A DNA stretch of 33,626 nt from Deltaproteobacteria bacterium (GTDB lineage: Bacteria; Desulfobacterota; Syntrophobacteria; Syntrophobacterales; Syntrophobacteraceae): positions 1 through 33,626 of the forward strand of contig JAJYTC010000032.1 in the NCBI GenBank assembly GCA_021793275.1, in the 5' to 3' direction. The translations under genes and the position numbers were made by a program. The notes under the pieces are model-generated. The model searched no databases, had not been told where the DNA came from, and was given only the letters and a program-made list of their open reading frames with translations. This document shows positions 6,312 through 29,108 of the stretch, in pieces. Numbering within the stretch: position 1 is the first letter of the stretch; every line of letters starts with the position of its first letter.

Positions 6312-6360
6312 TTGCGTTGCCTCGAAAAGGAAAGAGTGGTGGAAGCCAGCCGGCCATCTA

Positions 6361-6374: not shown

Positions 6375-6383
6375 TTCCCGCCC

Positions 6384-6412: not shown

Positions 6413-6445
6413 GAAAAAATCGGCCGGATCCGACCACCTGCAAAA

Positions 6446-7579
6446 TCAGCTGAGCAGGTGTTCGTTTCCGATGCGAACGCGAGTGAGGCCGGCAAGCTTT
6501 GCGGCTTTTAGACAGGCGCGGGCCTGGGCGGCCGAGGTGGTGGGAGAACCGTCCATCAGAAATTGCGGGGCAAATGCCAGCAGCGCATAAGGGATGTCCG
6601 GATTGATTCGGGCTATGAAGGAGGCCAGCCCGTAAATTTCCTCTTCGTCGATGAAGCCGGGGATGAGTGCAGTGCTTGCCACAAGCGCCGGCGGAGACAA
6701 ACGCTTCGAGGCCCATTCGGCGGCCCTGGCAAAATTATCCAGTATTTTTGAATTTTCAAATCCGCAAAGAGCGCGGTAAGTTGAGGGGTCCCAGGCTTTG
6801 AGATCGATTTTTACGCATCCTCCCGATTTAACGGCGAGCTTCATCATTGCTTTTAGCCCCGAGGGGTGAAGAGCGCCGTTGGTTTCCCAGCAGATACGAA
6901 GTATCCTGCCGGGATTTTTCTTTCTCACCGCCTGACTGAGCCGAACGGCGTACGGCAGCTGCGGCCCCGGGTCTCCGCCGAAAAAGCATATGCAGCTCGT
7001 AGCATCGTCGACTTCCTTCTCCAGGGTCTCGATGCCGGTCCACCGGGGCGCAAGATGGGCTTTCCTGAAAGACCAGTTCTGGCAATAGAGGCAATTCAAG
7101 TTGCACGCCTCAAGAGATACGGCCAGGTTATAGAAACCGACTTCGGGGCCGCAATCGTTTGAAAAACGGGGATATCCCGCCCCCGTGCCGCCTGCGCAGA
7201 CCCAGTCGGCAACACAGTTGGTGGGAAGAGGGTCGCGGTAGAAAGAAACCAGCGCGCGCGACCTGCCGTCGATTCGCATGCTCGATTCGGTACCGTGTCT
7301 TACCCCGCAGTACCCTTTCTGGTTCCTGCCCGGCCTGCAGCGATGAAAACAGAGTTTGCAGTCGATTCCCTCCGGGTTGGCGGGAGGACGGGTCGGAAGG
7401 CCGAACATTTCCCTGGATTGTGCATGGAGCCGCTCGATGTGTTCCCTGCTCTCCTCCGGACGTTTTCTGACACAGGACGGACAAATACCAATCAAGCAGG
7501 CGGCCTCGCCCAGAAGCTCACCGCAAAGAAGGCACCTGGCGTCTTTCGCGCCCGATACGCATTTTCCTCTTATGAACAT
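6446..7579 (-). CDS. PflX-like radical SAM protein linked to hyp genes
   Basis: A 377-residue radical SAM enzyme related to pyruvate formate-lyase activase-like proteins (COG1313/PflX). The cluster motif CNLNCLYC (Cys159, 163, 166) should bind the [4Fe-4S] cluster that cleaves S-adenosylmethionine, and CFFGGDPGPQ is the GGDP-type SAM-binding segment. Ahead of the core are several Cys pairs: CLLC at 16-19, CPSC at 33-36, and CKLCFHRC with GYCGV at about 74-92, the latter being the usual N-terminal zinc or cluster region of the family. The gene begins 14 bases after hypE and is probably the last gene of the hyp operon. The substrate is unknown; the linkage suggests a role in metalloenzyme maturation, but that is inference. 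Confidence 0.82.
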   Translation of the reverse strand: MFIRGKCVSGAKDARCLLCGELLGEAACLIGICPSCVRKRPEESREHIERLHAQSREMFGLPTRPPANPEGIDCKLCFHRCRPGRNQKGYCGVRHGTESSMRIDGRSRALVSFYRDPLPTNCVADWVCAGGTGAGYPRFSNDCGPEVGFYNLAVSLEACNLNCLYCQNWSFRKAHLAPRWTGIETLEKEVDDATSCICFFGGDPGPQLPYAVRLSQAVRKKNPGRILRICWETNGALHPSGLKAMMKLAVKSGGCVKIDLKAWDPSTYRALCGFENSKILDNFARAAEWASKRLSPPALVASTALIPGFIDEEEIYGLASFIARINPDIPYALLAFAPQFLMDGSPTTSAAQARACLKAAKLAGLTRVRIGNEHLLS

Positions 7580-7593
7580 AGATCAATTCCGTA

Positions 7594-8604
7594 TCAACAA
7601 ATGCGGGGAAGCTGCTCTCCCCGCAGCATATCCACTATGCGGCAGCCCCCTATCCTGGTCCTGAGCAAGACCCTTCCGGGGTCGTCGGAAACGACTTCAC
7701 CCATAAGGCAGGAGGATTTTCCAAGCGGATGGGACTTCATTGCTGAAAGAACGGCGTCGGCGCCAGAGGCCGGAACAATCGCCAGGACTTTCCCTTCGTT
7801 GGCCACGTAGAGCGGGTCGAGCCCGAGCACCTCACAGGCGCCGGCCACGTCGCCGCGCACCGGAAGCGCCTCTTCGAACAACCGGATTCCCACCCCTGAC
7901 TGTTCGGCTATCTCGTTTAAGGTCGTCGCCACCCCGCCCCGCGTCGGGTCGCGCAGTACGTGAATTCCCGCAAAAGCTTCGAGCATCCGTTCAACCAGGC
8001 CGTTCAACGCAGCGGAGTCGCTTTGGATTTCATTTTCAAACTCAAGCCCCTCGCGTTTGCACAACACCGCCATACCGTGGTCGCCTATCGTGCCGTTGAT
8101 CAGCACGAGGTCGCCCGGCCTGGCATTGGCGCCGGCGATGTCGAGTCCCGCCGGCACGATCCCGATCCCGGAGGTGTTGATAAACAGCTTGTCCGCCTTT
8201 CCCTTCGGCACCACCTTGGTGTCGCCCGCGATCACCTGCACGCCGGCTTCGCGCACCGCCCTCGCCATCGACGCCACCACTCTTTTTAGATCGTCCACCA
8301 AAAGGCCTTCTTCCAGGATGAAGCCCGCCGTAATATAGAGCGGCTTTGCGCCCCGCATGGCAAGATCGTTTACCGTACCGTGCACGGCAAGGCTTCCAAT
8401 GTCGCCCCCGGGGAAAAACAGGGGGTCGATCACGTAGGAATCGGTGGTCATGGCCAGGCGCCCGCCGCCGATTTCAAAAACGGCGGAGTCGTTTCTTTCC
8501 AGGAGCAGCGGGTTTTCAAAAGCGCTTAGAAAAAGCGCGTCGATGAGTTCGTGCATCGCGCGCCCGCCGCTTCCCTGATCGAGCTGAACAAGTCCCGGAT
8601 CCAT
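7594..8604 (-). CDS. hypE: Hydrogenase maturation protein HypE
   Basis: A 336-residue HypE of the PurM/SelD-like fold. HypE accepts the carbamoyl group from HypF on its C-terminal cysteine and dehydrates it with ATP to a thiocyanate that supplies the CN ligands of the [NiFe] centre. The C-terminus ends in PRIC, the invariant tail carrying that cysteine. Other family motifs are DQGSGGRAMHELI at the N-terminus, RNDSAVFEI near residue 38, HGTVNDLAMRGA near 75, VIAGDTKVV near 122 and LRDPTRGGVATTLNE near 220. The start at 8604 has a GGGGGGAGAGG run just upstream and matches the family; the open frame continues upstream into hypD. The gap from hypD is 17 bases. Confidence 0.96.
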   Translation of the reverse strand: MDPGLVQLDQGSGGRAMHELIDALFLSAFENPLLLERNDSAVFEIGGGRLAMTTDSYVIDPLFFPGGDIGSLAVHGTVNDLAMRGAKPLYITAGFILEEGLLVDDLKRVVASMARAVREAGVQVIAGDTKVVPKGKADKLFINTSGIGIVPAGLDIAGANARPGDLVLINGTIGDHGMAVLCKREGLEFENEIQSDSAALNGLVERMLEAFAGIHVLRDPTRGGVATTLNEIAEQSGVGIRLFEEALPVRGDVAGACEVLGLDPLYVANEGKVLAIVPASGADAVLSAMKSHPLGKSSCLMGEVVSDDPGRVLLRTRIGGCRIVDMLRGEQLPRIC

Positions 8605-8621
8605 CCTCTCCCCCCCAAAAT

Positions 8622-9722
8622 CTAACGCAGAGGCGCACTTTGATACCTGTAATACGCCCCGCAGGTCCCCTCGGAAGACACCATGCACGGGCCCTTTGGC
8701 TCCTGGGGCGAACAACCCTTTCGGAAAAGCCCGCATTCGGTCGGCAGCATAATCCCGCGCAACACTTCTCCGCACTTGCAGCCCGGGTGCTCGCGAACCT
8801 TTATGTCAGGCATGGCAAAGCGCTCTGCCGCGTCGAATTTTTTCCAGGCCGGGCGAAAACGAAGCCCGCTTTTCGGAATAACCCCCATACCTCGCCAGGT
8901 GGAATCGGCGGGTTCGAAAATTTCATCTATGAGTTTACGCGCGGCGACATTTCCTTCCCATGTGACAGCCCGGCGGTACTGGTTTTCGACTTCAGCGCGC
9001 CCGCTTTCGACCTGGTCGATCAAAAGAGTTACGCCCTGCAGGATGTCAAGGGGCTCGAAGCCCGTAACCACGCATGGGATCCGGTAATTTTCCGCCACCT
9101 CCCTGTATGCCCCGGCGCCGATTACAATGCTCACATGGCCCGGGCATATAAACCCGTCGATATTTACCTCACGGGCATCGAGCAGCGCCCTCATCGCCGG
9201 CGGCAGCAGCTTGTGGGCCGAAAAAACGGAGAAGTTCTCCACTCCCAGCTTCCGAGCCTGCTGGACCGCGGCAGCAATAGTCGGCGCCGTGGTTTCGAAG
9301 CCGATCCCTATGAATATCACCTCGCGGTCGGGGTTTTCCCGAGCGATCCTGAGAGCGTCCAGGGTCGCATAGACGATCCGCACGTCCGCCCCACGGCTTC
9401 TTTCGATATGAAGCGAGGAAGACGAACCAGGCACCCGCGCCAGATCTCCGAAGGTGGTAATGATAACCCCCGGTTTTCCAGAAAGCCATATGGCCCTGTC
9501 TATATCTTCGTTTGCCGTAACACACACGGGGCAGCCCGGACCGCTTATCAGCCTGATTTCCGGAGGCAGAAGCTCTTTTAGGCCGGATCTGAAGATGGCG
9601 ACCGTATGCGTGCCGCAGATCTCCATGAGCCTTATTTCCTTTTTGGAAAAAGTCCTGCGGCGAAGCCTTTCGATAAGCTCCTTCGCCAATTGAGGGTCCC
9701 TGTACTCATCGAGGTATTTCAC
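8622..9722 (-). CDS. hypD: Hydrogenase maturation protein HypD
   Basis: A 366-residue HypD, the iron-sulfur scaffold on which Fe(CN)2CO is assembled together with HypC. Conserved cysteines are seen in MEICGTHT (Cys36) and GPGCPVC (Cys64, Cys67). The C-terminal cluster region contains CKCGEVLRG, TECGLF and EGTCGAYYRY. GIGFETTAPTIAAA and CPGHVSIVIGA are further family motifs. The start is GTG at 9722, not the longer ATG frame: GTG is preceded by AAGGAGGAG at correct spacing and gives VKYLDEYRD, the family N-terminus. GTG overlaps the hypF stop in a GTGA, indicating translational coupling. HypD normally works with HypC, which is not encoded here. Confidence 0.96.
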   Translation of the reverse strand: MKYLDEYRDPQLAKELIERLRRRTFSKKEIRLMEICGTHTVAIFRSGLKELLPPEIRLISGPGCPVCVTANEDIDRAIWLSGKPGVIITTFGDLARVPGSSSSLHIERSRGADVRIVYATLDALRIARENPDREVIFIGIGFETTAPTIAAAVQQARKLGVENFSVFSAHKLLPPAMRALLDAREVNIDGFICPGHVSIVIGAGAYREVAENYRIPCVVTGFEPLDILQGVTLLIDQVESGRAEVENQYRRAVTWEGNVAARKLIDEIFEPADSTWRGMGVIPKSGLRFRPAWKKFDAAERFAMPDIKVREHPGCKCGEVLRGIMLPTECGLFRKGCSPQEPKGPCMVSSEGTCGAYYRYQSAPLR

Positions 9723-12160
9723 GGTAAATGCTCCTCCTTTGCCGCGATGGCTTCTCCTCGCTTTTCCATGAGCTTGTGGGCGCCTATCCACGCCTGGCCA
9801 AGAGATATGCACGCGTCATTGGGCGGGACTTCTTTGTGGGCGAAGACCTCCAGGCCCATGGCCAAAAGGTCTGATTCCAGCCGATCGGAAAGATAACCGT
9901 TCTGAAAGACCCCGCCGCTAAGGGCCACGCGATTGATGCCCGTTCTTGCCGCCGCCGCGAGCGCAGCCTCCCCGAGAATGCGCGCGAGGGAGTTATGGAA
10001 CCGCGCGGCGATTCTACCCGCCGGGACCCCTCGCCTGACATCTTCGACAAGGGCCTCGATTATCGGGAACTGGTCGATCAAAACGAAAGGTTTTGCCACG
10101 CGAAGACCGATCATAGACGGGTCATCGAGCGAGGTAGAGGAAGTGGTGCTTGCGGTCTCGATTTTTCCCTCATAATGTCCGTCATCGGGTTCTATAGCCT
10201 GTTCGAACTCGATTGCAGCCTGCCCTTCATAGGTGGTGTACAGGCACATCCCGCAAAGGGCTGCAGCCGCATCGAAGAGTCTTCCGCAAGAAGATGTAAG
10301 CGGGCAGTTGAGGCGCCGGGAAAGCATCCGCAAAATTATTCGCACATCCCCCGGCGGCCACGAAGCCAGAAAATCCGCATACCTGCTCTCGGCATTTTCC
10401 GGGTCGATGCTCCACAGGTAGCCGAGGGCCATTCGCCACGGCTCTCTTATCGCTTTTGCGCCTCCCGGCAGAGGAACGTTTTTGAAATGCCCGAGCCTTT
10501 TAAACCCCGCTTTATCGACTCGCAGGATTTCACCACCCCAGATCGTTTCATCTTCGCCAAAACCGGTCCCGTCCAGGGCCAGGCCGATTACCGGCTCATC
10601 GATCCCGTGTTCTGCCATTACCGCGGCAATGTGAGCGTGATGGTGCTGGACGGCCATTACGGGAAGCTCCCGTTGTTTTAGCGCCCACCGTGTACTCAAA
10701 TAATCGGGATGCATATCGTGCACGATCAGTTCGGGCCTGACTTCGAGAATACGTTCGAGATGGAGGATCGAATGCTCGAAGGAGCGAAGCGTTTCGAGAT
10801 TTTCAAGGTCCCCGGTGTGCTGGCTCAAAAAAGCGCTATTACCGCGTGTCAGGCAGACCGTATTTTTCAGCTCGGCGCCCGTTCCCAAGACCGAAGGGCA
10901 CGGATCGCGCAAAAAAACCGGCAGCGGCGCGTACCCTCGCGCCCGGCGAAGAGATCGGGCATGGCCTCCCCGGACACAGGCGACCGAATCGTCGCAGCGA
11001 ATGTAAATCTCGCGGTCGTGAAAGAGGAAGTAGTCGGCAATTGCGCTCAGCCTCAGCCTGGCTTCTTCATTTTCCGTTACGATCGGCTCATCGCTCTGGT
11101 TGCCGCTGGTCATTACGAGCGCGCGGCAGGGCGCGCCGTCAAAGAGGAGGAAATGAAGCGGCGTATAGGGCAAAAAAACGCCAAGACGCTTGTTTTTCGG
11201 AGCCACGCTCGCGGCAATCGGAACACCCGCGAAATCCCGACGCTTCCACAGAAGCACGATGGGCCTCGCCGGGCTTTTCAGCAACTCCTCTTCCCTGCCG
11301 TCAAGATGACAATGGAGCGCGATCTCTTCGATTCCGCCAAACATAACGGCAAAGGGCTTTTCCTCGCGTATCTTGCGGCCCCGCAGCCGGCTCACGGCCC
11401 CTTCATCGGTAGCCTTCACCGCCAGGTGGAAACCGCCAAGCCCTTTTACCGCGACAACAGCGCCCGCATCGAGCAGCGCCGTCACCTTCACCACGGCTTC
11501 CTCACGGGAGGCGATCACTTTTCGCCGGCAGTCTTCGAGCCACACCTGCGGGCCGCATTCAGGGCAACCGTTGGGTTGGGCATGAAAACGCCGGTCAAGG
11601 GGGTTTTCATACTCGCTGAGACATTCCGGGCACATGTCGAACTGCGACATCGTGGTCTTGTCCCGGTCGTATGGAATGTCCTTTATAATCGTATAACGGG
11701 GGCCGCAGTTGGTGCAGTTGATAAACGGATAGCGAAATCTGCGGTCGTTTGGATCGAAGAGTTCGCGCAGGCAGTCGGAGCAGGTGCACACATCGGGAGA
11801 AATCAGTGTCGAGCGCGATTCGACCGCCCTGCTTCCGGCTATCGTGAACCCTTCAAGCTCCCGGTAGGGAAGGTCTGCCGTTTCAACACCGACGATCCTG
11901 GCCAAAGGCGGGTGTTCCCGGGAAATCGAGCGGATAAAGGTTTCGACCGAGCCGGCGGGACCGGCGACTTCGATTTCCACACCGTCCGACTGGTTGCGGA
12001 CCCATCCGTTCAACCGGCATCGCCCGGCCAACTGGTAAATAAAGGGTCTAAAGCCGACTCCCTGGACGATCCCACGGACTTTGACCAGAACACGGCGTCC
12101 CGCGTTCTTGTCGGTGTTGCAAGGCTGATCGGAGTGTGTTTCTCCGGCTGAGGATTTCAC
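9719..12160 (-). CDS. hypF: Carbamoyltransferase HypF
   Basis: An 813-residue HypF that makes a carbamoyl group from carbamoyl phosphate and transfers it to HypE. Domains in order: acylphosphatase (about 25-110, with VRGIVQGVGFRPFIYQLAG), two zinc-finger units (about 125-215, CTCSDC with CTNCGPRY, then CPEC with CPECGPQ), a YrdC-like domain (about 225-400, including LRRARGYAPLP at its end) and the Kae1-like C-terminal domain with the metal-binding HHHAHIAAV motif near residue 505 and ALSGGVFQN. The length is normal for the family. The start is GTG at 12160, two bases after the hypB stop; no better start is nearby. It overlaps hypD by 4 bases. Confidence 0.96.
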   Translation of the reverse strand: MKSSAGETHSDQPCNTDKNAGRRVLVKVRGIVQGVGFRPFIYQLAGRCRLNGWVRNQSDGVEIEVAGPAGSVETFIRSISREHPPLARIVGVETADLPYRELEGFTIAGSRAVESRSTLISPDVCTCSDCLRELFDPNDRRFRYPFINCTNCGPRYTIIKDIPYDRDKTTMSQFDMCPECLSEYENPLDRRFHAQPNGCPECGPQVWLEDCRRKVIASREEAVVKVTALLDAGAVVAVKGLGGFHLAVKATDEGAVSRLRGRKIREEKPFAVMFGGIEEIALHCHLDGREEELLKSPARPIVLLWKRRDFAGVPIAASVAPKNKRLGVFLPYTPLHFLLFDGAPCRALVMTSGNQSDEPIVTENEEARLRLSAIADYFLFHDREIYIRCDDSVACVRGGHARSLRRARGYAPLPVFLRDPCPSVLGTGAELKNTVCLTRGNSAFLSQHTGDLENLETLRSFEHSILHLERILEVRPELIVHDMHPDYLSTRWALKQRELPVMAVQHHHAHIAAVMAEHGIDEPVIGLALDGTGFGEDETIWGGEILRVDKAGFKRLGHFKNVPLPGGAKAIREPWRMALGYLWSIDPENAESRYADFLASWPPGDVRIILRMLSRRLNCPLTSSCGRLFDAAAALCGMCLYTTYEGQAAIEFEQAIEPDDGHYEGKIETASTTSSTSLDDPSMIGLRVAKPFVLIDQFPIIEALVEDVRRGVPAGRIAARFHNSLARILGEAALAAAARTGINRVALSGGVFQNGYLSDRLESDLLAMGLEVFAHKEVPPNDACISLGQAWIGAHKLMEKRGEAIAAKEEHLP

Positions 12161-12162
12161 CG

Positions 12163-12870
12163 TCAGTGTTTGCCCGCGTGAGGGGAGGCGGCGGCGCCCG
12201 CCCGGTTTTTCCGGTGTTCGCTCACCTTATCTTCGATCCAGGAGAGCCAGGGGGCGAAACCTTCCCCGGTCCTGCACGAAATTTCGAAGACCTTGCCCGC
12301 CGGGTTCAACTGTCTCGCGCTTTGCCGGATTTTCCCCAGGTCGCAGTCCGTATAGGGCAACAGGTCGATTTTATTCACCAGCAGGACCGAACAAATCTGG
12401 AACATAAGCGGGTATTTGATCGGTTTGTCATCCCCCTCGGTAACGCTGAGGATCATGATTTTTTCATGCTCGCCAAGATTGAATTCGGCGGGGCAGACGA
12501 GGTTTCCGACGTTTTCGATTATCAGCAGGTCGACTCCGGCCAGATCGAGGGAGTCCAGGGCGATCTGGATCATGTTGGCGTCGAGGTGGCAGCCGCCGTC
12601 CGTGTTGATCTGCACGGCTTGAACGCCTTTTTTTTGTATCCTCTCGGCGTCGTAGGACGATTGGAGGTCGCCTTCGATTACCGCGATGTTCATCCGCCCG
12701 GCCAGTGCGTCTATGGTTCTTTCCAGCAGCGAAGTCTTGCCCGCCCCGGGCGAACTCATGAGGTTTACCACAAAGATTCCGGCCTTGTCGAATCGCCTCC
12801 GGTTTTCAGAGGCGAGCCGCTCATTGGCCTGAAGAATGTTGCGAACAACCGGCACCTTTATCTCAGCCAT
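12163..12870 (-). CDS. hypB: Nickel-insertion GTPase HypB
   Basis: A 235-residue HypB, the SIMIBI-class GTPase that helps HypA insert nickel into the hydrogenase large subunit. The P-loop SSPGAGKTSLLE spans about residues 39-50. EGDLQSSYDAERI, IIENVGNLVCP and VNKIDLLPY are the other nucleotide- and metal-site motifs. The His-rich or CxxCGC N-terminal extension of some HypB proteins is absent, so it probably lacks the high-affinity nickel store. The start at 12870 (MAEIKVPV) is preceded by GGGAGAAGAGG; six more codons are open upstream. It overlaps the hypA end by 8 bases, so the two genes are translationally coupled. Confidence 0.95.
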   Translation of the reverse strand: MAEIKVPVVRNILQANERLASENRRRFDKAGIFVVNLMSSPGAGKTSLLERTIDALAGRMNIAVIEGDLQSSYDAERIQKKGVQAVQINTDGGCHLDANMIQIALDSLDLAGVDLLIIENVGNLVCPAEFNLGEHEKIMILSVTEGDDKPIKYPLMFQICSVLLVNKIDLLPYTDCDLGKIRQSARQLNPAGKVFEISCRTGEGFAPWLSWIEDKVSEHRKNRAGAAASPHAGKH

Positions 12871-13222
12871 CCTCTTCTCCCGTTTCACCCTCTATGCTCA
12901 TCACGTAAAGCTCCCGTCCGCTAAGCATTTCGAAGACGGGCTGACCGCACTTCGGGCATTCGAATACCCGGTCCTGAACTTCAAAAGAAAAATCGCACTT
13001 GTCACAGCGCGCCGTAACCCCGACCGTTTCGATTTCGAGCAGCGCCCCCGAAGCCGCGGTATCGCGGCTGACCAGGTCGAAGCAAAACCTGAGCGACTCG
13101 GGGACCACGGCCGCAAGCTCCCCGATCCGGAGCCTGACCTTGTTTATGCGCCCCAGACGATGCCTGTTCGACTCATCGACAATGATATCAAGAAGGCTCT
13201 GGGCAATGGAGAGTTCGTGCAC
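12863..13222 (-). CDS. hypA: Hydrogenase nickel metallochaperone HypA
   Basis: A 119-residue HypA that brings nickel to the hydrogenase precursor with HypB. The start is a GTG at 13222, giving the invariant N-terminus (M)HELSIAQSL in which His2 binds nickel; the frame extended to the ATG at 13252 would bury that residue. The structural zinc site is formed by CDKC (Cys73, 76) and CPKC (Cys89, 92). IGELAAVVPESLRFCF is also typical. It is the first gene of the hyp operon. A weak TTGACC-type -35 lies about 100 bases upstream on the minus strand, but I cannot pick a convincing -10. Confidence 0.94.
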   Translation of the reverse strand: MHELSIAQSLLDIIVDESNRHRLGRINKVRLRIGELAAVVPESLRFCFDLVSRDTAASGALLEIETVGVTARCDKCDFSFEVQDRVFECPKCGQPVFEMLSGRELYVMSIEGETGEEDG

Positions 13223-13323
13223 GGGACTTTCCCCCGATTGACGGCAGGACATTCAGATCGCATAATGCATTTCGCATCCGGCAATGAATTCACGTCGCCA
13301 TTTAACATACCGGTTATAACGGG

Positions 13324-13419
13324 TCAATAGATGCGGGTGTTCAAACGGGGATGTTCTGTTCCGATGCGGTTTAAAGCAGCGAGAACGCGTCTTGCCTTTG
13401 TGGAAGGCCACTCACTCAT
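13324..13419 (-). pseudogene. Truncated hicA toxin fragment
   Basis: Directly after hicB, an ATG in an ATGA overlap opens a 31-codon frame starting MSEWPSTKARRVLAALNRIG. This resembles the N-terminus of HicA-type mRNA interferases of the kind paired with this HicB. After about 20 residues the similarity ends and a stop follows at 13324-13326. The conserved G-S-H active-site region of HicA is not encoded. This looks like a stub left by a deletion. Confidence 0.6.
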
Positions 13420-16170: not shown

Positions 16171-18237
16171 ATGGACGCGAAAAACGCCAGGAGCCTTCAA
16201 TACCATATTCAACAGATCAGGGAGGAAAAGAGACATTTTGAAAACGCCTACCAGGCCGTTGCCAGAATGATCCTCAACGAACCGTCCGCCATAGAGAAAG
16301 TGATGGTAAACGGCAAGAGCACCTATGATTTCAAAATTTTCCGTGCCTTCCCCAGGCACGTTATAGGCATGTACGACGAGATCAACAGTTTCGTCTCGTT
16401 TGTAAAGGACGCCGCCGAAGGGGGTTCATCGAGGGAGATGGCTTTCGTTCTCGTCGGGGAACCGGGCAACGGAAAAACATTCTTTGTCGACTACCTGTGC
16501 TCCCTCTACCGAAATTTTATCGCACGCGAGGAAAACCGAAGATATACCTTCAATATCAAAAATCTGGAAACACTGGGGAGCTACGGCAAGATAAGGGCGA
16601 TACAGTCCCAGACCTTCGAAGATCCCATGATCCTGGCCATGAATCTCTTCGAGTCCTTGGAGAAAAACAGGCAGTTTCTTTCCGAATCGGCCGGCTTTTC
16701 CGAGGAGCAGATCGACAGACTCTATCTCAATTACAGGCCTCTTGGGGCGTGCAGCGACTACATCCTGAACGAAATAAGGGAATACTCGAAGCAAGATCTC
16801 GAAAAGCTTCTAAGCTTCTTCGAAGTCGTCCCGGTCCCGCTTAGCGAAAGCATGGGATCGATGACCGGGAAATATTCCGCTAAGGACAAAATAACTTCAT
16901 CGGCGGTCGATCTGCTGGGGGAAGAATCGATCCAGCGGCTGCTCCACATCTCCGATCTCAACAACCCCTACCGATTCGACCTGAGACGAGGCGCCCTGGC
17001 GCGAGTCGCGGGCGGAGGAATCCATTTCAGCGATGAAATTTTCAAGAACAAAAAGGACCTCGTCCAGGTCTACCTTGGGGTCATCCAGAACCGGGACATA
17101 GAAATTGACGGGTTCCGTTGGCCCCTCGACACCCTCATCATCGCCACCAGCAACAACTCGGAATTCAACAGGTTCCTTGCTGAAAAGGAAGAGGCGCCCA
17201 TCGTCGACCGATGCAGGATCTGCTATGTCGCCCACAATACCGATTACCGCCTCCAGGAAAAGTTGACATCCTATGCAATAGGCAGCGAGGCCAAAACCAC
17301 CCTGACAAAGGAAAAGCTCCACCAGGACCCCAACCTCAACAGCGCCGCCTCCGCAGCGGTGGTGCTGACCAGGCTGCCCAAGTCGGAAAAACTCACTCCC
17401 ATCGAAACGATGAAGCTGGCTGCCGGCGAAGTCGCAGGCGAGAAGAGCATAAAGACGCTCGCAGAGGTAATCGACTCCCTCAATCATGAGCCCGACATCA
17501 CCAAGAGATTCGGTCAGAAGGGACTCGGCCAGCGCAATCTGGGCAGGGCCGTCCAACTGCTCATGGAGACCTCGGAGACCAACGACGGTCAATGCATGTT
17601 CGCCTACGACATCTTCAAGTCCATCGAACGGGTGATCCTGGATTACGTTTCCGAGGCAAATGAGCGCGCAAAGTTTCTCGACGATCTCAAAATCGCCAAA
17701 GGGCTCTACCGCGAACGGATAATGACCGAAATGTTCAACGCCTATATGGATGAACCCCATGCCATTCGCAAGGACGTGATGAACTACGTGAACATGATAA
17801 TAGGCATAGACGCCGAGGACCTCGGCCCGGACAGGATGTGGAAATACAAAAACCCGCAGACCGGAGAGCTCAAGGCTTTGAAGATCGACGAGCGCTACAT
17901 TCAAAGCGTCGAAGACAGGCTGGGGCTCAAAACCCGCGAACAGAGGGAGTCCTTCAGGACGTCGATCCGCAAAATATACGGCCAGAAGATGTCCACGGAT
18001 CGGGATTATGATTTCATGGACAATCTCGAACTGGTCAAGGCTGTAACCGATGTGCGGCTAAAATCGGACATCGCCGGGGCGGGCAGCCTGATCGGCGCCT
18101 TGGCCAACCGCACAAACGAGGAAAACCAGAAGCTCTACGACCGGATTATCAACGCCATGCTGGACAAGCTGGGATACTGCCGGACCTGTGCCCAGAAAAC
18201 CGTAGAATACTTTTGCACCAAAAGTGATGAGAACTGA
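16171..18237 (+). CDS. prkA: PrkA-family AAA serine protein kinase (first copy)
   Basis: A 688-residue protein of the PrkA/YeaG family. An N-terminal AAA ATPase domain holds the Walker A motif GEPGNGKT at residues 96-103, a Walker B-like IHFSDEIF segment near residue 288 and a sensor-like LIIATSNNSEFN near 325. The C-terminal kinase-like domain shows YKNPQTGELKALKID near residue 552 and REQRESFRTSIRKIYG near 590. PrkA proteins are cytoplasmic stress- or sporulation-linked enzymes with reported kinase and, more recently, protease-like activity. The start at 16171 follows GGAG; a TTG four codons earlier is possible. DUF444 and spoVR genes follow, as in E. coli yeaG-yeaH (with ycgB elsewhere). 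A Cys cluster (CRTCAQ...FC) ends the protein. Confidence 0.9.
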   Translation: MDAKNARSLQYHIQQIREEKRHFENAYQAVARMILNEPSAIEKVMVNGKSTYDFKIFRAFPRHVIGMYDEINSFVSFVKDAAEGGSSREMAFVLVGEPGNGKTFFVDYLCSLYRNFIAREENRRYTFNIKNLETLGSYGKIRAIQSQTFEDPMILAMNLFESLEKNRQFLSESAGFSEEQIDRLYLNYRPLGACSDYILNEIREYSKQDLEKLLSFFEVVPVPLSESMGSMTGKYSAKDKITSSAVDLLGEESIQRLLHISDLNNPYRFDLRRGALARVAGGGIHFSDEIFKNKKDLVQVYLGVIQNRDIEIDGFRWPLDTLIIATSNNSEFNRFLAEKEEAPIVDRCRICYVAHNTDYRLQEKLTSYAIGSEAKTTLTKEKLHQDPNLNSAASAAVVLTRLPKSEKLTPIETMKLAAGEVAGEKSIKTLAEVIDSLNHEPDITKRFGQKGLGQRNLGRAVQLLMETSETNDGQCMFAYDIFKSIERVILDYVSEANERAKFLDDLKIAKGLYRERIMTEMFNAYMDEPHAIRKDVMNYVNMIIGIDAEDLGPDRMWKYKNPQTGELKALKIDERYIQSVEDRLGLKTREQRESFRTSIRKIYGQKMSTDRDYDFMDNLELVKAVTDVRLKSDIAGAGSLIGALANRTNEENQKLYDRIINAMLDKLGYCRTCAQKTVEYFCTKSDEN
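18209..18225. repeat. Palindrome at the 3' end of prkA
   Basis: ACTTTTG (18209-18215) and CAAAAGT (18219-18225) are exact inverted repeats around CAC. The arms are the same as in the palindrome at 1448-1465. Here they fall inside the last codons of prkA, so coincidence is possible. Confidence 0.35.
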
Positions 18238-18251
18238 AACAAGGTTCAAGA

Positions 18252-18350
18252 CTGATGTGATGGGTTTCGCTTCGCTCCACCCATCCTACAATCTACTACA
18301 ACCTACAATCTGATGTGATGGGTTTCGCTTCGCTCCACCCATCCTACAAT
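18252..18350. repeat. Two 41-bp tandem REP-like hairpin repeats
   Basis: Positions 18252-18292 and 18310-18350 are identical 41-bp copies. Each holds a GATGGGT/ACCCATC stem around TTCGCTTCGCTCC. They lie 58 bp apart in the 150-bp gap between prkA and the DUF444 gene. The loop is related to the hairpin at 5424-5450. They could attenuate transcription or stabilise the upstream mRNA. Confidence 0.8.
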
Positions 18351-18387
18351 TTCCGACGACCCGGGAGGAAGGGTAAACGAGGGCCCC

Positions 18388-19713
18388 ATGAGAAAAATGG
18401 TTTCAGACTCCCCGGAAATGAAGACCGAAGAGGCTTCACGGCACGATGCGCCGGAATGCGGACCGGCGCTCATGAGTCCGCGAGCGCCGGACATGGCCTT
18501 CTGGAGCGGGGACATGGTATTTCTGCAAAACTCATCGCCTTCCATGGCCTCTCACGTTCAAAGTCTCAGCGCCATAGACGAACTGCTCGAACGCGACAAG
18601 CAGCGGGAAAAGGACGGTTTTCCGCGCAAGATTCGGGTTGGAAGGCTGGTCAAGCCCGGTCGCGGAGGCAAGGACAAAATCATCCTGGTGCCCACCACGG
18701 TGGAGGAAAAATTTATCCATGACGTAAGAAACGGAGAAACGGAGAAAGAAAGTTCATCCGGCGGAACGGGCGAAGGAGAAGAAGGGGAAGTGATTGGAGA
18801 GGAGCCTGCCGACGGCGTTCCGCAGGCCGATGGCCAGGGTTCGGGTCCGGGCGGAGGGGAAAGCGCCGATCATGAAATAGAATCGAGCGCCTATGATCTC
18901 GGGAAAGTCCTGGGCGAGAAGTTCGAATTGCCCAATCTGAAAAACAAGGGGAAAAAGCGCTCGCTCTCCCGTTACACCTACGACCTGACCGACAGGCACG
19001 CAAGAACCGGGCAGTTGCTCGACAAAAAGGCGACACTTAGAAAAATCATCGAAACCAATATCAACCTCGGCAACATCGACAATAACGGGGAAATCGACCC
19101 CTCCCGGTTTCTGGTTTCCCCTCAGGACGAAGTCTATCGAATTCTATCGAAGGAAAAAGATTACGAATCGCAGGCCATGATCTTCTTCCTGAGGGACTAC
19201 TCGGGTTCGATGGCCGGTCAGCCCACAGATGCAGTCGTTACCCAGCACGTGCTGATCTACAGTTGGCTCCTCTATCAGTATGAAAGAAAGGTGGAAACAA
19301 GGTTCATTCTTCATGACACGACGGCCAGGGAAGTCACCGATTTCTATACCTACTACAACTCTTCGGTGGCAGGCGGGACCAGGGTGGAGTCGGCCTACCG
19401 GCTTGTAAACGAGATCGTTGAAGCCGGTAATCTCGCCCGCGATTACAATATCTACGTTTTCCACGGTACGGACGGAGACGACTGGGATTCGGAGGGACAA
19501 AATACCCTTCCGGAAATCAGGAAAACTTTGGGCTTCGCCAACAGAGTCGGCGTGACCATTGCGGGTTTGAATGGCGGGTCTTCCATCGTGGAAAAGTATA
19601 TAGCGGGCTCCGGCCTGCTCGAAGAATTTCCCCGGGTGATTCGCATGGACAACGTAGGCGAAAACGCTACGGAAGTGCGGCTCATAGAGGGAATAAAAAA
19701 ACTGCTCTCCTGA
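18388..19713 (+). CDS. DUF444 (UPF0229, YeaH/YhbH) von Willebrand-type protein
   Basis: A 441-residue member of the YeaH/YhbH family. RDKQREKDGFPRKIRVG near residue 69 and IDNNGEIDPSRFLVS near 230 are family features. A Gly/Glu/Ser-rich acidic linker spans about residues 115-165. The vWA domain begins near residue 262, with a metal-site motif FLRDYSGSM (D270-x-S272-x-S274) that fits the MIDAS D-x-S-x-S. YeaH is the known partner of the PrkA kinase YeaG in E. coli stress response. An N-terminal extension of about 55 residues is longer than I would expect and could be partly untranslated; the ATG at 18388 has GAGGG just upstream. The spoVR gene follows after 15 bases. Confidence 0.9.
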   Translation: MRKMVSDSPEMKTEEASRHDAPECGPALMSPRAPDMAFWSGDMVFLQNSSPSMASHVQSLSAIDELLERDKQREKDGFPRKIRVGRLVKPGRGGKDKIILVPTTVEEKFIHDVRNGETEKESSSGGTGEGEEGEVIGEEPADGVPQADGQGSGPGGGESADHEIESSAYDLGKVLGEKFELPNLKNKGKKRSLSRYTYDLTDRHARTGQLLDKKATLRKIIETNINLGNIDNNGEIDPSRFLVSPQDEVYRILSKEKDYESQAMIFFLRDYSGSMAGQPTDAVVTQHVLIYSWLLYQYERKVETRFILHDTTAREVTDFYTYYNSSVAGGTRVESAYRLVNEIVEAGNLARDYNIYVFHGTDGDDWDSEGQNTLPEIRKTLGFANRVGVTIAGLNGGSSIVEKYIAGSGLLEEFPRVIRMDNVGENATEVRLIEGIKKLLS

Positions 19714-19728
19714 CGTGGAATTACGACT

Positions 19729-21357
19729 ATGGAGCTTATCAATCAGCACACCAAGAAAATAATGGAAGGGTGCAAGGAAAGGGCCCGAAAGTCGGGACTG
19801 CGCTTCGAAGACGAAACGCTCGAATACATCGTCACCAATAAAGACTTGATCGAACTTTCCTCCAAACACATGATCCCGACCCTCTACGATTACTGGGTAA
19901 ACGACGTCGAAGTGCTCAAGGAGAAAGGAAGGTACGAACTCTACCCCAACAATCCCTACGAAACGGTCATCAATACGCGCCCGGCTATTTCCTTCTATAA
20001 CGACAACAATCCCGACTGGCTCAATGTCATGATTTTCTACCACGTCCTGGGCCACATTGATTTCTTCCAAAACAATATGTTCTTCAAACACACCCGGGAT
20101 GAAGATTTCGCCGGACGCGCCCTCTCCGACAAAAGGTCCATCGCCATGCTTCGCTCCGAAAAGGGCCGATGGGTCGATTATGTGATCGAATTCAGCCGCA
20201 GCATAGACAACCTGGTGGGGTTCCATTCCGAGCTGTCCGAATTAAACGAGCCCCGGGAAATCAAGACCTCTGCAAAGCTCGACTTCTACTTCGACATTTT
20301 TCTGCAAACCATCCGAAAAGTGAACCTCCTCGAATATCTGAAGGAGATCGACCGCTATAACGAAGCGGCCCGCCAATATGGAGAGATGGCCGAGACCTTG
20401 TTTTTCTCGCAGGTGACCAGGTCTTATCCGGAATTTGATGCTCTTTTCGACCGGCACAAAAAACAGGGACGCAGGAAAGCGCGGGACCTTCTTGAATTCC
20501 TGCTGCTCAATTCACCCTTTTTGCAAAAGGAAGAAAACAGGTGGATGCAGTCGGTGATCGAAATAGTGCGCAAGACCTCGCTTTATTTCCAGCCCCAGAT
20601 ACGCACAAAAATCCTTAACGAAGGATGGGCCAGCTACTGGCATGAGAAGCTCTTCCTCAAAGACGACCGGATAAGGGGAAATGAAGTGGGTTTTGCCCGG
20701 GTCAATGCGCTGGTCACTTCGCTGCCAAGGGTCGGCATAAATCCATATGCCCTGGGAATGCGGCTTTTGAGCCACATCGAAGAGATGGCTGACAAAGGCA
20801 GGCTGTCCTACGATTTTCAGAAGCTCCAAAACGCAGAGCAGCGGCGCGACTACGATAAGGCCACCGGTTCGGGACTGGACTACGTCTTCAGGGTCAGGGA
20901 AGATTTCAACGATTTCATGTTCATCAACAGCTTCGTAGACCAGCAATTCGTGGACAGGCACAAACTCTTCGTCGCCGGCATCAGGCTAAATCCCGCCAAG
21001 CGGACCCGGGAGTACTACGTGCGAAGCAGGGACGCAGGACAGTACAGGCAAATGCTCCTCGACCAGCTCTATCATCCTCCCTTCATAGAAATCGAACAAT
21101 CCGGGACCCAAGACAACTGTCTCTACCTCAACCACCGCTTCGAGGGCAAACCGCTCGTAAAGGAATTCATTTCCAATACCATGCTGGGAATTGAATACCT
21201 CTGGGGCGGGCCGGTGAAACTCGAGACTTCCGAACCGATTGCAAAAGCGCGCGAATTTCAACCCGGGGAGTCCCATCCCCCTGCCGATAGGGGCCCCTCT
21301 TACCAAAGGGTGCTCTACACCATGAAAAACAGGCAGCTTTCGAGGACACTGCTGTGA
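19729..21357 (+). CDS. spoVR: SpoVR/YcgB-family protein
   Basis: A 542-residue SpoVR-like protein. The N-terminal half carries the family stretches NPYETVINTRPAISFYND (about 75-92) and MIFYHVLGHIDFFQNN (about 101-116), with His105 and His109 as likely conserved polar or metal-site residues. ILNEGWASYWHEKLF lies near residue 295 and YVFRVREDFNDFMFINSF near 385. SpoVR is needed for the spore cortex in Bacillus, but in non-sporulating bacteria the YcgB homologue works with the YeaG/YeaH stress system, and no spore gene is in this window. The stop codon overlaps the start of the second prkA-like gene, indicating coupled translation. Confidence 0.92.
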   Translation: MELINQHTKKIMEGCKERARKSGLRFEDETLEYIVTNKDLIELSSKHMIPTLYDYWVNDVEVLKEKGRYELYPNNPYETVINTRPAISFYNDNNPDWLNVMIFYHVLGHIDFFQNNMFFKHTRDEDFAGRALSDKRSIAMLRSEKGRWVDYVIEFSRSIDNLVGFHSELSELNEPREIKTSAKLDFYFDIFLQTIRKVNLLEYLKEIDRYNEAARQYGEMAETLFFSQVTRSYPEFDALFDRHKKQGRRKARDLLEFLLLNSPFLQKEENRWMQSVIEIVRKTSLYFQPQIRTKILNEGWASYWHEKLFLKDDRIRGNEVGFARVNALVTSLPRVGINPYALGMRLLSHIEEMADKGRLSYDFQKLQNAEQRRDYDKATGSGLDYVFRVREDFNDFMFINSFVDQQFVDRHKLFVAGIRLNPAKRTREYYVRSRDAGQYRQMLLDQLYHPPFIEIEQSGTQDNCLYLNHRFEGKPLVKEFISNTMLGIEYLWGGPVKLETSEPIAKAREFQPGESHPPADRGPSYQRVLYTMKNRQLSRTLL

Positions 21358-23651
21358 TGCAACCGGAAATGGAAAATGGACGTCGCGCGGTTGACCAACT
21401 CTGCGCAAAAATACAGGAACGGGGGCGGCGCACGCCGTTCAGTTTTCCCGAATACATCGCCCTCACCGCCAAATTTCCCGAACGTATCTTCCGCAATATC
21501 TTCCAGATGTTCTATGACATGATACACAGCTACATAGATGTTGGAGTAGATGAATACCCCGACGATCCCGAATCGATCAACTACGTCCCCTACGATTCCA
21601 GCCGCCTGTTCGAACAGGGCACGGACCGGCCGTTCTTTGGCGACCGGCTTTTCGTAAACAGGCTGCTCGGCCACATTTCCTCCTTCAGGCGCGGCATCAG
21701 GCAAAACAGAATCTATATTTTCGAGGGTCCTCACGGATGCGGCAAGAGCACTTTTCTAAATAACGTGCTGATGAAATTCGAAAAATACGCCGAGACCGAG
21801 GAAGGGTCAAGCTTCGAGACGGTTTGGCGGCTAAACAGGAAACTCCTTGGAAACGGAACGGACCCCACGGCAAAGTACCTCGTCGAGCAGTTGCGAAACA
21901 TCGTCAACCACTCCACCAGGGGCGAACAGGACCCGGCCCCCGGCCCCTCAGCCGCCGGCAAAGAACATCTGGAAATCGCATGCCCGAGCCATGACAATCC
22001 CCTGCTTCTGATTCCCAAAACATACCGCAGGGACTTCTTCGATGAATTGATTCCCAACAAGGATTTCAAACACAAGCTCTTCTCTCACAAGCAATACGAA
22101 TGGGTTTTCAAGGATAGCCCCTGCACTATCTGCCAGTCTTTGTATAACGCCCTCCTGGATATTTTGGACTCACCCTCCAAAGTCTTCGAAATGATCTATG
22201 CCCGCAGGTATCTGTTCAATAGAAGACTCGGGATCGGGATCAGTGTTTTCAACCCTGGCGACAGAATACACAGGATGCATGCCGTAAGCGACGACCATAT
22301 CCAAAACCACCTCAACGCCATATTGATGGACGGCAATAGAGTAAAGTACCTCTATTCACGCTATGCTAACACCAATAACGGCATTTACGCCATAATGGAT
22401 ATCAAGGGCCACAATAAGGAGCGTTTCGCCAATTTACACGGAATAATAAGTGAAGGAGTCCATAAGGTCGATTGTATAGAAGAAAATGTGAATTCGCTTT
22501 TCTTTGCAGTCATGAACCCGGAGGACCGTGAGAATATATCCGATACCCAGTCCTTTACAGATCGAATCACTTATGTGAAAATACCCTATGTACTTGATTT
22601 CAATACCGAAATTAAAATCTACAAGAACATTTTCGGAAACCAGATCCGGAAATATTTTCTTCCAATGGTCCTGGAAAACTTCGCAAAAATCATCATTTCT
22701 TCCCGGCTCAATCCTCAATCCGCGGCCATGGCCGAGTGGATACCCGACCCGGGGCAATACCGCATCTATTGCGATCGAAATCTTTTGCTGCTCAAAATGG
22801 ATATATACGCGGGGATCATTCCTTCCTGGCTATCGGAGGAGGACCGAAAAAATTTCACGGCTAAAAGGCGGCGAAGAATCATTGCGGAATCCGAGTCGGA
22901 AGGAGACAGAGGCTTTACCGGGAGAGATTCGATCAGGATGTTCAACGAATTTTTCCAGGCTTACTCGAAGAAGGACAAGCCTATCACGATGGCCATGCTG
23001 AACCTCTATTTCAAGAAGCACTGCTGCGCGGGCGGACCCATTCCGGAAGATTTTCCCGACGCCCTGAGCGGACTTTACGATTACACGGTCCTGCAGGAGG
23101 TAAAGGAATCGCTCTATTATTACAATGAAGATCACATTTCCCGGCAGATTCAAAACTACCTGTTTGCAGTCAATTTCGAAATCGGACAGACCCAGAAATG
23201 CCACTATACGAACGATGAACTGAAGATTACCGAAGAACTGTTCGAAACCATCGAGCAGAAGGTCCTGGGGCATCGTTCCACCCGAGACAAACGAAAGGCC
23301 TTTCGAAAGGAGGTGCAGAACATCTATGCGTCCAAGACCCTTGCCCAGGAGATACTGATCGAGGGAAAATCGGTATGTGAAACCCATCTCTACCAATCGT
23401 TGTACGACCGGTATGTCCATAACCTGAAAGAAAACGTGCTCGATCCCTTCCTCAAAAACGACAACTTCAGAAGCGGTGTCAAGGACTACGCAACGGAAAG
23501 CTTCAAGACTTACGACAAGCGGATCAGGGAGGACGTCGCCCTCCTTATGCGCAACCTCAACACCAGGTACGGGTACAGCGAAAACAGCGCAAAGGAAGTA
23601 TGCCTATACGTGATCGACAATGACCTCGCTAAAAAATTCGCAGAGCACTGA
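21357..23651 (+). CDS. Second, divergent PrkA-like AAA ATPase/kinase
   Basis: A 764-residue PrkA-like protein, longer than the first copy. Walker A is FEGPHGCGKST (residues 122-132). The segment in the Walker B position reads GIYAIMDIKGHNKERF, which has Asp but no following Glu, so ATP hydrolysis may be altered. SLFFAVMNPED resembles sensor 1 and YVKIPYVLDFNTEIKIYKN matches the PrkA block that follows the ATPase core. The C-terminal end (RKAFRKEVQNIYASK, then RYGYSENSAKEVCLYVIDN) also fits PrkA. CTIC and HCC cysteine groups are present. The ATG overlaps the spoVR stop (a GTG lies one codon earlier). It may be a regulator or partner of the first kinase; function is inferred. Confidence 0.85.
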   Translation: MQPEMENGRRAVDQLCAKIQERGRRTPFSFPEYIALTAKFPERIFRNIFQMFYDMIHSYIDVGVDEYPDDPESINYVPYDSSRLFEQGTDRPFFGDRLFVNRLLGHISSFRRGIRQNRIYIFEGPHGCGKSTFLNNVLMKFEKYAETEEGSSFETVWRLNRKLLGNGTDPTAKYLVEQLRNIVNHSTRGEQDPAPGPSAAGKEHLEIACPSHDNPLLLIPKTYRRDFFDELIPNKDFKHKLFSHKQYEWVFKDSPCTICQSLYNALLDILDSPSKVFEMIYARRYLFNRRLGIGISVFNPGDRIHRMHAVSDDHIQNHLNAILMDGNRVKYLYSRYANTNNGIYAIMDIKGHNKERFANLHGIISEGVHKVDCIEENVNSLFFAVMNPEDRENISDTQSFTDRITYVKIPYVLDFNTEIKIYKNIFGNQIRKYFLPMVLENFAKIIISSRLNPQSAAMAEWIPDPGQYRIYCDRNLLLLKMDIYAGIIPSWLSEEDRKNFTAKRRRRIIAESESEGDRGFTGRDSIRMFNEFFQAYSKKDKPITMAMLNLYFKKHCCAGGPIPEDFPDALSGLYDYTVLQEVKESLYYYNEDHISRQIQNYLFAVNFEIGQTQKCHYTNDELKITEELFETIEQKVLGHRSTRDKRKAFRKEVQNIYASKTLAQEILIEGKSVCETHLYQSLYDRYVHNLKENVLDPFLKNDNFRSGVKDYATESFKTYDKRIREDVALLMRNLNTRYGYSENSAKEVCLYVIDNDLAKKFAEH

Positions 23652-23745: not shown

Positions 23746-24021
23746 TCATGCTTTCTTTTCTGTCAGGCGACCGGAAATATACTTATGAAGAACGCTTGCA
23801 ATCAGAGTCTGGTACGGTATTCCTTCTTCCAGCGCTATCTTTTGAATTGCCGTTAAATCCTTTTGCGAGATGCGAATGTTCACCCTTTTGTCCTTCTTGA
23901 AGGTCGCGGAGGCGTAGCCTCGATAGCGAGCCGCTTCGGATTTCGGGTCGGAGATCGTTCTCCATTCGTCTCTTTCATAGGATTCCAGGATTTCTTTTTC
24001 TTCCGGTTCCAGATTGTTCAT
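23746..24021 (-). CDS. Ribbon-helix-helix antitoxin (BrnA/CopG-like)
   Basis: A 91-residue protein whose C-terminal half has the ribbon-helix-helix pattern: strand KRVNIRIS followed by helices around AIQKIALEEGIPYQTLIASV. The N-terminal half (EKEILESYERDEWRTISDP) is the toxin-binding region typical of BrnA-like antitoxins. It binds the toxin and the promoter. The ATG overlaps the toxin stop (ATGA), and toxin-first order is the BrnT-BrnA arrangement. Confidence 0.8.
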   Translation of the reverse strand: MNNLEPEEKEILESYERDEWRTISDPKSEAARYRGYASATFKKDKRVNIRISQKDLTAIQKIALEEGIPYQTLIASVLHKYISGRLTEKKA

Positions 24022-24299
24022 CCTTTCTTTTCTCCCGAATATCTTTTTGTAGCCTTGCGACTTGGAATCGCAGTTTTAAGAAATACTTCCTCTTCGGATT
24101 CGACAAAAGGGACTAACCAGGCATAATTCTCGATGTCGAGGATGAACATGCGTTGTCCACGATACTTAACCCGATTCGGGTGCTCGACAATGTCAAGAAT
24201 GTCGCCGCGCTCGATGTGAAGGACGACTTCCTCAAACGATACGCCCCGGTCCCTTTTAAGCTGTTCATTCTTTTCATCGTTCCAAGAAAAGTATTTCAT
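24018..24299 (-). CDS. BrnT-like toxin (RelE-fold ribonuclease family)
   Basis: A 93-residue protein resembling BrnT-type toxins: FSWNDEKNEQLKRDRGVSFEE near the N-terminus, then GQRMFILDIENYAWLVPFVE and a basic C-terminus around PSRKATKRYSG. BrnT-like proteins are RNases that stop translation and are neutralised by a ribbon-helix-helix antitoxin encoded downstream. Here that gene overlaps by 4 bases. A promoter with a consensus TTGACA sits so close that the mRNA would be nearly leaderless. It could also belong to a related family of small toxins; the pairing supports the toxin call. Confidence 0.78.
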   Translation of the reverse strand: MKYFSWNDEKNEQLKRDRGVSFEEVVLHIERGDILDIVEHPNRVKYRGQRMFILDIENYAWLVPFVESEEEVFLKTAIPSRKATKRYSGEKKG

Positions 24300-27676: not shown

Positions 27677-29108
27677 ATGCAAAAAGAAGATTTTTCTTCC
27701 GCGTTACGCTTCTTTAAACCCCTTATCAAGGGGGGGTACGCGCAAAAGGAGAAACTTGCCGGAGGCTGGACCGAGATCCGAACCGGGGGCCGCTCCTGGG
27801 AGGATTACCACCGAAGACGCTGGCAGTATGACAAGGTGGTGCGCTCTACCCATGGAGTCAACTGCACGGGATCATGCTCATGGAATGTCTACGTAAAAGA
27901 CGGCATCATCGTCTGGGAAACGCAACGCGGCGATTATCCCGACTGCGGACCGGAGAGCCCGGACTATGAACCCCGAGGATGCCCCAGGGGAGCGACCTTT
28001 TCATGGTACGTCTACAGCCCGCTGCGCCTGAAATACCCCTATATGCGTTCGGTTCTTTTGCAGATGTGGCAGGAGGCTTTGGAAACCCGTTCCGACCCCG
28101 TTGCAGCCTGGCGGAGCATCGTCGATGATCCTCTTAAGACCCGCAAATACAAGCGGGCTCGCGGCAAAGGCGGATTGGTGCGGGTCTCCTGGGACCAGGC
28201 GGTGGACCTCATCGCGGCCTCTCTTGTGCACACCATTCAAAAATACGGCCCCGACCGCATCTTCGGCTTTACCCCCATTCCCGCCATGTCCATGGTCTGT
28301 TGCGCTTCCGGCGCCAGGTTTCTTTCTCTTATCGGCGCATCCATGGTCAGCTTCTACGACTGGTATTGCGACCTGCCCCCCGCCTCTCCGCAAATCTGGG
28401 GCGACCAGACCGATGTCCCGGTGAGCGGCGACTGGTTCAACGCCACTTATATGATCGTGTGGGGAACCAACCTGCCCATGACGCGCACCCCGGATGCCCA
28501 TTTCTACACGGAAGCCCGATACAGAGGCGCCAAAGTGGCGGCCATGGCCCCCGACTATGCCGAGTACGTCAAATTCGCCGACGCCTGGCTGCCCGCCAAA
28601 GCCGGCACGGACAGCGCACTGGCGATGGCCCGGACGCTTCCCATGGTCTGGTACATCCCGCCCCTCAGTCCCCTGATCAACCTCTCGGATAAGACCAACG
28701 GGGCGCAGGTCCTGGATCGCTTGCGGATACCGGTGAGGTATCTGGCCAACCTGCTGGCTGCAGGCGATGAGGCACCGGTTCGCCTGGCGCTCAAAAAACT
28801 CATGGCCCTGCGCGCCTATATGAGGTCGAAACAGATGGCCGCCGCCGGAGGCAGGTTGCGCCCTTGCACAATCGCCGGGCGCAGGGGAGACGGCAGGGAT
28901 GGGAGGTACGCTTACAGAATCGCCGGAACTGGAAGAAGCCGGACTGACTCCCGCTGTGGCCGAAGAGATGTTCCGGTTGCTTGCCGTCGCCAAATACCGG
29001 GACCGGTTCGTGATTCCCACGGTGCAAAGGGAAGAGGTCCAAAATCTGCATCGGGACAGGGGCACATGCGGCTTTCCGCCTGAAAGTCCGGGGAGGGAAG
29101 ATGTCTGA
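27677..29108 (+). pseudogene. narG'-'narH fusion: start of NarG joined to end of NarH
   Basis: Codons 1-318 (to about 28630) encode the N-terminal part of NarG, the molybdenum catalytic subunit: HGVNCTGSC and EPRGCPRG supply the His and Cys ligands of the FS0 cluster, and WDQAVDLIA and FTPIPAMSM are typical. The frame then jumps directly to a NarH-type C-terminus: RTLPMVWYIPPLSPL, then IPVRYLANLLAAGDE. NarG is normally about 1,200 residues and NarH about 500, so roughly 900 NarG and over 300 NarH codons are missing. A frameshift near 28859 follows. The correct last frame ends with FVIPTVQREE and stops at 29106-29108, overlapping narJ. The open frame ending at 29083 is the shifted one. Either a real deletion or an assembly join; no active NarGH could be made. 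Confidence 0.9.

Follow-up and report, generated by a model that had tools for sequence, protein, structure and literature searches.

Two diverged PrkA-family proteins in a conserved DUF444-SpoVR gene cluster of Desulfobacterota resemble parts of a protein-remodelling motor more than they do protein kinases

The window analysed here, a 33,626-nucleotide stretch of contig JAJYTC010000032.1 from a deltaproteobacterium of the family Syntrophobacteraceae (assembly GCA_021793275.1), carries four consecutive genes that encode two PrkA-family proteins, a DUF444 von Willebrand type A (vWA) protein and a SpoVR-family protein (Table 1). The original prediction had placed four open reading frames in a single direction at this site, and all four lie on the forward strand with their families confirmed by Pfam at scores above the curated (gathering) cut-offs, which for the PrkA families is 25. 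PrkA1 matches PF08298 with 57 bits and PF06798 with 130 bits, PrkA2 matches PF06798 with 160 bits and PF08298 with 36 bits (the C-terminal part only), the vWA protein matches PF04285 with 108 bits, and the third reading frame matches PF04293 with 203 bits. The DUF444 protein also passes the NCBIfam model NF003712 (676 bits against a cut-off of 421). Neither PrkA reaches the YeaG equivalog (NF011999/PRK15455, cut-off 576 bits), PrkA1 scoring 47.7 and PrkA2 22.8 bits, and the SpoVR protein falls short of the YcgB equivalog (NF008737, cut-off 679 bits) at 93.7 bits. Because the four proteins are 50-93% identical over almost their whole length to counterparts in dozens of genomes, the reading frames are not a product of chance.

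Table 1. Features of the four-gene locus, numbered from the first nucleotide of the window.
Feature	Coordinates	Strand	Description	Basis
Candidate sigma-54-like promoter site AGGCACAAAGCTTGAA	16089..16104	+	82 nt before prkA1	
prkA1	16171..18237	+	PrkA-family AAA+ ATPase, 688 aa	Pfam PF08298, PF06798 and motif alignment
Dispersed repeat, two tandem copies of ~52 bp	18252..18361	+	prkA1-DUF444 gap; outside the system	
DUF444 vWA gene	18388..19713	+	441 aa	PF04285, NF003712
spoVR	19729..21357	+	SpoVR-family protein, 542 aa	PF04293
prkA2	21354..23651	+	Deeply diverged second PrkA-family AAA+ protein, 765 aa	PF06798, 160 bits
GTGA, prkA2 start over spoVR stop	21354..21357	+		

The set is preceded by a gene for a YegS-like lipid kinase and followed, on the opposite strand, by a toxin-antitoxin pair of the BrnT/CopG type and then by genes for YdhR-like and hybrid-cluster proteins. 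The CopG-like antitoxin and BrnT-like toxin (23749-24299) lie just past prkA2, and both score slightly below their Pfam cut-offs. The repeat between prkA1 and the DUF444 gene has an inverted core, GATGGGT...ACCCATC, of which there are 10 copies genome-wide, and it is REP-like. Further along the window, a 468-aa reading frame (27677-29083) matches two nitrate reductase subunits in turn, first alpha (NarG, N-terminal part) and then beta (NarH, C-terminal domain), with NarJ next; it has the appearance of a narG-narH fusion left by an in-frame deletion, unless the assembly is at fault.

As to regulation, the Rhizobium etli prkA-vWA-spoVR genes form one operon that is strongly dependent on sigma-54 and (p)ppGpp (PMC3188799). 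In a scan that compared the best-scoring site in the 300 nt upstream of prkA1 with shuffled sequence, sigma-54-like sites were found at p<=0.01 in 19 of 75 loci, where 0.75 were expected, and several were perfect TGGCAC-N5-TTGCW matches. The site in the window has GA rather than GC at its -12 element (p 0.05 by shuffling), and near-identical sites occur in the two closest relatives (loci L029 and L116). Since the scan gave frequent hits in an internal control region as well, the signal, which is confined to a minority of loci, is a lead only, suggestive of sigma-54 control of the set. Matches to promoter and terminator consensus sequences in general were no better than shuffle level.

The four-gene arrangement is far from peculiar to this genome. 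Among the 78 loci that had at least 5.6 kb of upstream sequence, 72 show the exact contiguous order PrkA1-DUF444-SpoVR-PrkA2, and in the remaining 6 genes have been moved or interrupted, the locus is cut by a contig end, or spoVR is split into two reading frames. A profile search of 297 genomes of the phylum found PrkA1 in 22, strong PrkA2 matches in 20 and both in 20; one of the two genomes with PrkA1 only holds a 320-residue fragment, and the other is 78% complete. Across 40 relatives PrkA2 was present in every genome with a PrkA1-type protein, about 5.3 kb away, and all ten loci taken from relatives had the same gene order. These searches bear out the claim that the second PrkA-like protein is part of the set, rather than a gene that only rarely stands beside the other three. 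Two rearranged loci in the 297-genome set (G285 and G168) retain both PrkA1 and PrkA2, and in G285 and L122 prkA2 has been kept despite its relocation from the other three genes.

In taxonomic terms, contigs of GTDB genomes include at least 435 relatives, mostly deltaproteobacterial. The best 80 of these at least 435 are mainly Desulfobacterota; the labels KSB1, Gemmatimonadetes and Aminicenantes each occur on one assembly, and isolates are represented by, among others, Desulfonema magnum, Geobacter argillaceus and Desulfatitalea alkaliphila. This spread across relatives rules out a pairing confined to one genus. No conserved flanking partner was found, the commonest neighbouring family being a generic response regulator at mixed positions in 14 of 79 loci. 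A search of 72,556 plasmids gave no match to PrkA2, and PrkA1 matched only two distant PrkAs there. The four genes are thus a real unit, kept together by hundreds of mostly sulfate- or metal-reducing bacteria and by one phage.

Individual loci vary in other ways. The set occurs in tandem in L110 (38-12286) and L146 (735-5629), the PrkA2 of one copy directly preceding the PrkA1 of the next, and in L085 (4386-6062), where the other three genes are intact, spoVR consists of two consecutive reading frames of 220 and 326 aa. On contig C1 of G168 (1329181-1342756 and 2629465-2631610), about 1.3 Mb separates PrkA1 from SpoVR-PrkA2, and PrkA2 is truncated by the contig end, its final ~80 codons lying ~11 kb past prkA1, a layout that reflects either rearrangement or misassembly.

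A translational tie between SpoVR and PrkA2 had also been proposed, from the overlap of the two genes. The overlap does exist in the window, where the prkA2 GTG (21354) and the spoVR TGA (21355-21357) share 4 nt counted from the GTG, or 1 nt if prkA2 starts at the alternative ATG at 21357. A start overlapping the spoVR stop is available in just 21 of 96 loci, so no argument should rest on the overlap alone; the gap between spoVR and prkA2 is 30 nt or less in 58 of the 96. Tight spacing is common, and overlap as such is not conserved.

A complete set is also carried by a phage. The IMG/VR contig 3300024259_000075 (L191; 41.6 kb) is that of a tailed phage, with terminase, portal, major head and tape-measure genes, and it holds all four genes in the window's order at 5983-13373, beside replication genes. 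The encoded proteins are 63% (PrkA1), 46% (DUF444), 46% (SpoVR) and 28% (PrkA2) identical to those of the window, and spoVR and prkA2 overlap by 1 nt. An alignment search of viral contigs with PrkA2 gave no match; the phage contig surfaced through PrkA1. Other phages carry clusters of PrkA, DUF444 and SpoVR genes, namely the Thermus phages phiYS40, MN1 and Lalka8 and the huge uncultured phages LR745206 and LR756511, and Ralstonia phage RsoM2USA has SpoVR and PrkA (PMC8504454). The PrkA-DUF444-SpoVR sets of these other phages have a single PrkA of the canonical clade, whereas two PrkAs in the window's order were found only in 3300024259_000075. That a phage carries the complete set suggests that its four members act as a unit.

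How far this set departs from known systems depends on the comparison. The three-gene prkA-vWA-spoVR operon, found in Proteobacteria and other groups, as in R. etli (PMC3188799), E. coli (YeaG/YeaH/YcgB) and Thermomicrobium, has the order PrkA-DUF444-SpoVR, like the window, and is linked to stress or stationary phase, with sigma-54 control in R. etli; it has no second PrkA, its PrkA belongs to the canonical clade, and the window proteins score far below the YeaG and YcgB equivalog cut-offs. The genome studied here (4.65 Mb, 278 contigs) in addition encodes a canonical PrkA-DUF444 (PrkA-YhbH) pair on another contig (L001), which shares the two families with the window but is only ~24-27% identical to PrkA1 and its DUF444 partner and falls in a separate clade. 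A haloarchaeal signature described in 2011 comprises two adjacent PrkA genes, always with DUF444 and SpoVR and universal in haloarchaea (PMC3102087). By that description the gene content is the same as in the window, although the haloarchaeal PrkA genes adjoin each other and those of the window are separated by DUF444 and SpoVR. Thus the four-gene content is not new. No haloarchaeal locus was among the matches listed in the plasmid and GTDB scans. The open-access literature searched yielded no account of the four-gene order in deltaproteobacteria and none of its phage counterpart.

The two PrkAs differ greatly from one another. In a phylogenetic tree PrkA1, PrkA2 and canonical PrkA (including E. 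coli YeaG) form three separate clades on long branches, and on this sequence evidence PrkA1 and PrkA2 are separate, ancient lineages. The separate deep clades rule out prkA2 as a recent duplicate of prkA1. PrkA1 has a complete set of AAA+ motifs (Walker A GEPGNGKT, Walker B GIHFSDE, sensor-1 N328, Arg finger R347, sensor-2 R455), and PrkA2 has a set that is complete save for the catalytic Glu (Walker A GPHGCGKST, Walker B GIYAIMD, sensor-1 N388, Arg finger R404, sensor-2 R524). Where PrkA1 retains the full Asp-Glu of Walker B, PrkA2 has Met-Asp, with Asp349 at the position of the catalytic Glu, a substitution that is invariant in a 48-row alignment and the consensus over 108 rows. The diverged phage PrkA2 has the same Asp, and the phage PrkA1 has DE. 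PrkA2 has in addition invariant C210, H213, C257 and C260 residues resembling a zinc knuckle, and this Cys/His...Cys-x2-Cys arrangement is common to PrkA2 and the canonical PrkA of this genome and absent from PrkA1. Mean column identity is 84% for PrkA1 versus 64% for PrkA2. A structural model of PrkA2 (pLDDT 80) matches AAA+ structures, including ClpA, MCM, BchI, RuvB and Lon, at Z scores of ~8-10, which are generic matches; the model of PrkA1 is poor (pLDDT 51), so that its fold assignment rests on motifs. The comparison with MoxR-type AAA+/vWA systems covered two traits: PrkA1 matches AAA_5 marginally (23.4 bits, cut-off 22), and its paired vWA protein has a MIDAS. PDB entries 9xip, 9xiq and 9xir, a 692-aa 'serine protein kinase' with 30 chains over the three entries, are related to both PrkA1 and PrkA2 and were not among the fold-library matches.

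The remaining two proteins retain recognizable functional sites. The MIDAS of the DUF444 protein (DxSxS, T, D) is intact at D270-S272-S274, T331 and D362. The SpoVR protein has the conserved H105xxxH109 and NEGWAxxWH (E298, H305) motifs, whose residues are identical in E. coli YcgB, and the conserved His and Glu residues are like those of a metal site.

The original prediction was of a two-kinase complex; spelled out, both PrkAs would be serine kinases of one signalling complex, scaffolded by SpoVR and the vWA protein, a reading in keeping with the family name and with the Pfam title of PF06798; several papers still call B. subtilis PrkA and YeaG kinases. At the position of YeaG K426, PrkA1 has Arg in 50 of 50 alignment rows, PrkA2 has K, R, N, M or S, and two canonical PrkAs have Asn, so the catalytic Lys proposed for a Hanks-type serine kinase is not conserved in PrkA1 or PrkA2. 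A few residues before K426, a conserved Gly-rich stretch ends in a sensor-2-like Arg, and this stretch resembles the AAA+ sensor 2 of MoxR and Lon. K426 has been treated as the catalytic lysine of YeaG, and the K426A variant fails to complement (PMC4664914); given the adjoining sensor-2-like Arg, damage to the AAA+ lid could explain this loss of function equally well. In PrkA2 the matches to AAA+ folds reach residue 552-567, inside the region (481-752) that Pfam names the PrkA kinase domain, and the fold-match lists of the PrkA2 model contain no protein-kinase fold, which does not prove that one is absent. Work on B. anthracis PrkA found negligible kinase and protease activity, with neither kinase activity nor autophosphorylation detected (PMC13001217). 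With K426 not conserved and the AAA+ motifs kept, the kinase label for both PrkAs finds no support in the form proposed; the two-kinase reading is weak, and we consider it improbable. From their motifs, the two proteins look more like halves of a protein-remodelling motor.

What kind of motor they might form admits several answers. A proteolytic machine, in which PrkA would unfold clients, as a ring, for degradation by its own weak protease activity or by a ClpP-like partner, would accommodate the ClpP-like reading frame (PF00574, PHROG 1827) inserted between prkA1 and the DUF444 gene of the phage, and B. subtilis PrkA has been reported, as cited in PMC13001217, to be a weak ATP-dependent protease. 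Its prospects are nevertheless slim: no protease gene recurs as a neighbour of the four genes across the bacterial loci examined, pure B. anthracis PrkA has no protease activity, the weak activity being ascribed to a contaminant (PMC13001217), and the phage insertion is a single case, which is not taken as proof of a protease partnership, ClpP genes being frequent in phages for other reasons. That PrkA2 is a degenerate bystander hitch-hiking in the operon might be argued from its being the less conserved ATPase of the pair, but its ATPase and zinc-like residues are invariant and it is retained where it has been relocated, and this idea deserves hardly any credence. A more serious alternative, though still an unlikely one, is that PrkA1 and PrkA2 form two independent homo-oligomeric AAA+ machines, with no mixed ring, that have one vWA adaptor in common or act on different clients. 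The very large divergence of the two proteins, the slower evolution of PrkA1 and the retention of most ATPase motifs in PrkA2 are points in favour of such machines; against them stand the strict co-occurrence of the pair and the conservation of complementary Walker B motifs, which persist even in the distant phage copy.

MoxR-type remodellers and magnesium chelatase combine an AAA+ protein with a MIDAS-containing vWA protein, and one of the two AAA+ subunits of magnesium chelatase is degenerate. MoxR/vWA and BchI/BchD systems (CbbQ/CbbO, RavA/ViaA and magnesium chelatase) accordingly offer a likeness in manner of working only: each has an AAA+ protein with a MIDAS vWA partner, and BchI/BchD pairs one active with one degenerate AAA+ subunit, as is proposed for PrkA1 and PrkA2. 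They belong to another AAA+ family and have no SpoVR counterpart, and in the window the vWA domain is a separate protein. Because of this shared layout and the motifs, the preferred interpretation is an AAA+ motor, its two PrkAs mixed or paired, that works with a vWA adaptor and acts via or on SpoVR.

More fully, the four proteins would constitute a module for stress or growth arrest with a two-subunit AAA+ motor at its core, the DUF444 protein serving as MIDAS adaptor and SpoVR as client or effector, a tentative reading to which we assign a probability of roughly 0.45. PrkA1 would be the main hydrolyser of ATP and would share a mixed ring with PrkA2 as its slow or regulatory partner (compare BchI/BchD). 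The DUF444 protein may deliver the client to the ring, a role that vWA proteins play beside MoxR-type ATPases; SpoVR could be that client, or an effector whose state the ring remodels. Expression of the module would probably be linked to starvation, possibly via sigma-54. Such a motor would need no protein phosphorylation. Two caveats attach to it: the Asp at the Walker B position of PrkA2 could still allow hydrolysis, and PrkA1 and PrkA2 could each build a homo-ring of their own.

PrkA, DUF444 and SpoVR genes are widespread and linked to starvation and sporulation. It is possible, if doubtful, that a hydrolysing PrkA1 and a PrkA2 with an altered Walker B motif, together with a MIDAS adaptor and SpoVR, make up an undescribed two-subunit AAA+ machine that is widespread in Desulfobacterota and was acquired whole by a phage. 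If true, the 'PrkA kinase' operon would have to be seen anew, as encoding a motor that remodels clients. A version with two complementary ATPase subunits, nearly always accompanied by the vWA and SpoVR proteins, offers a direct test of motor versus kinase.
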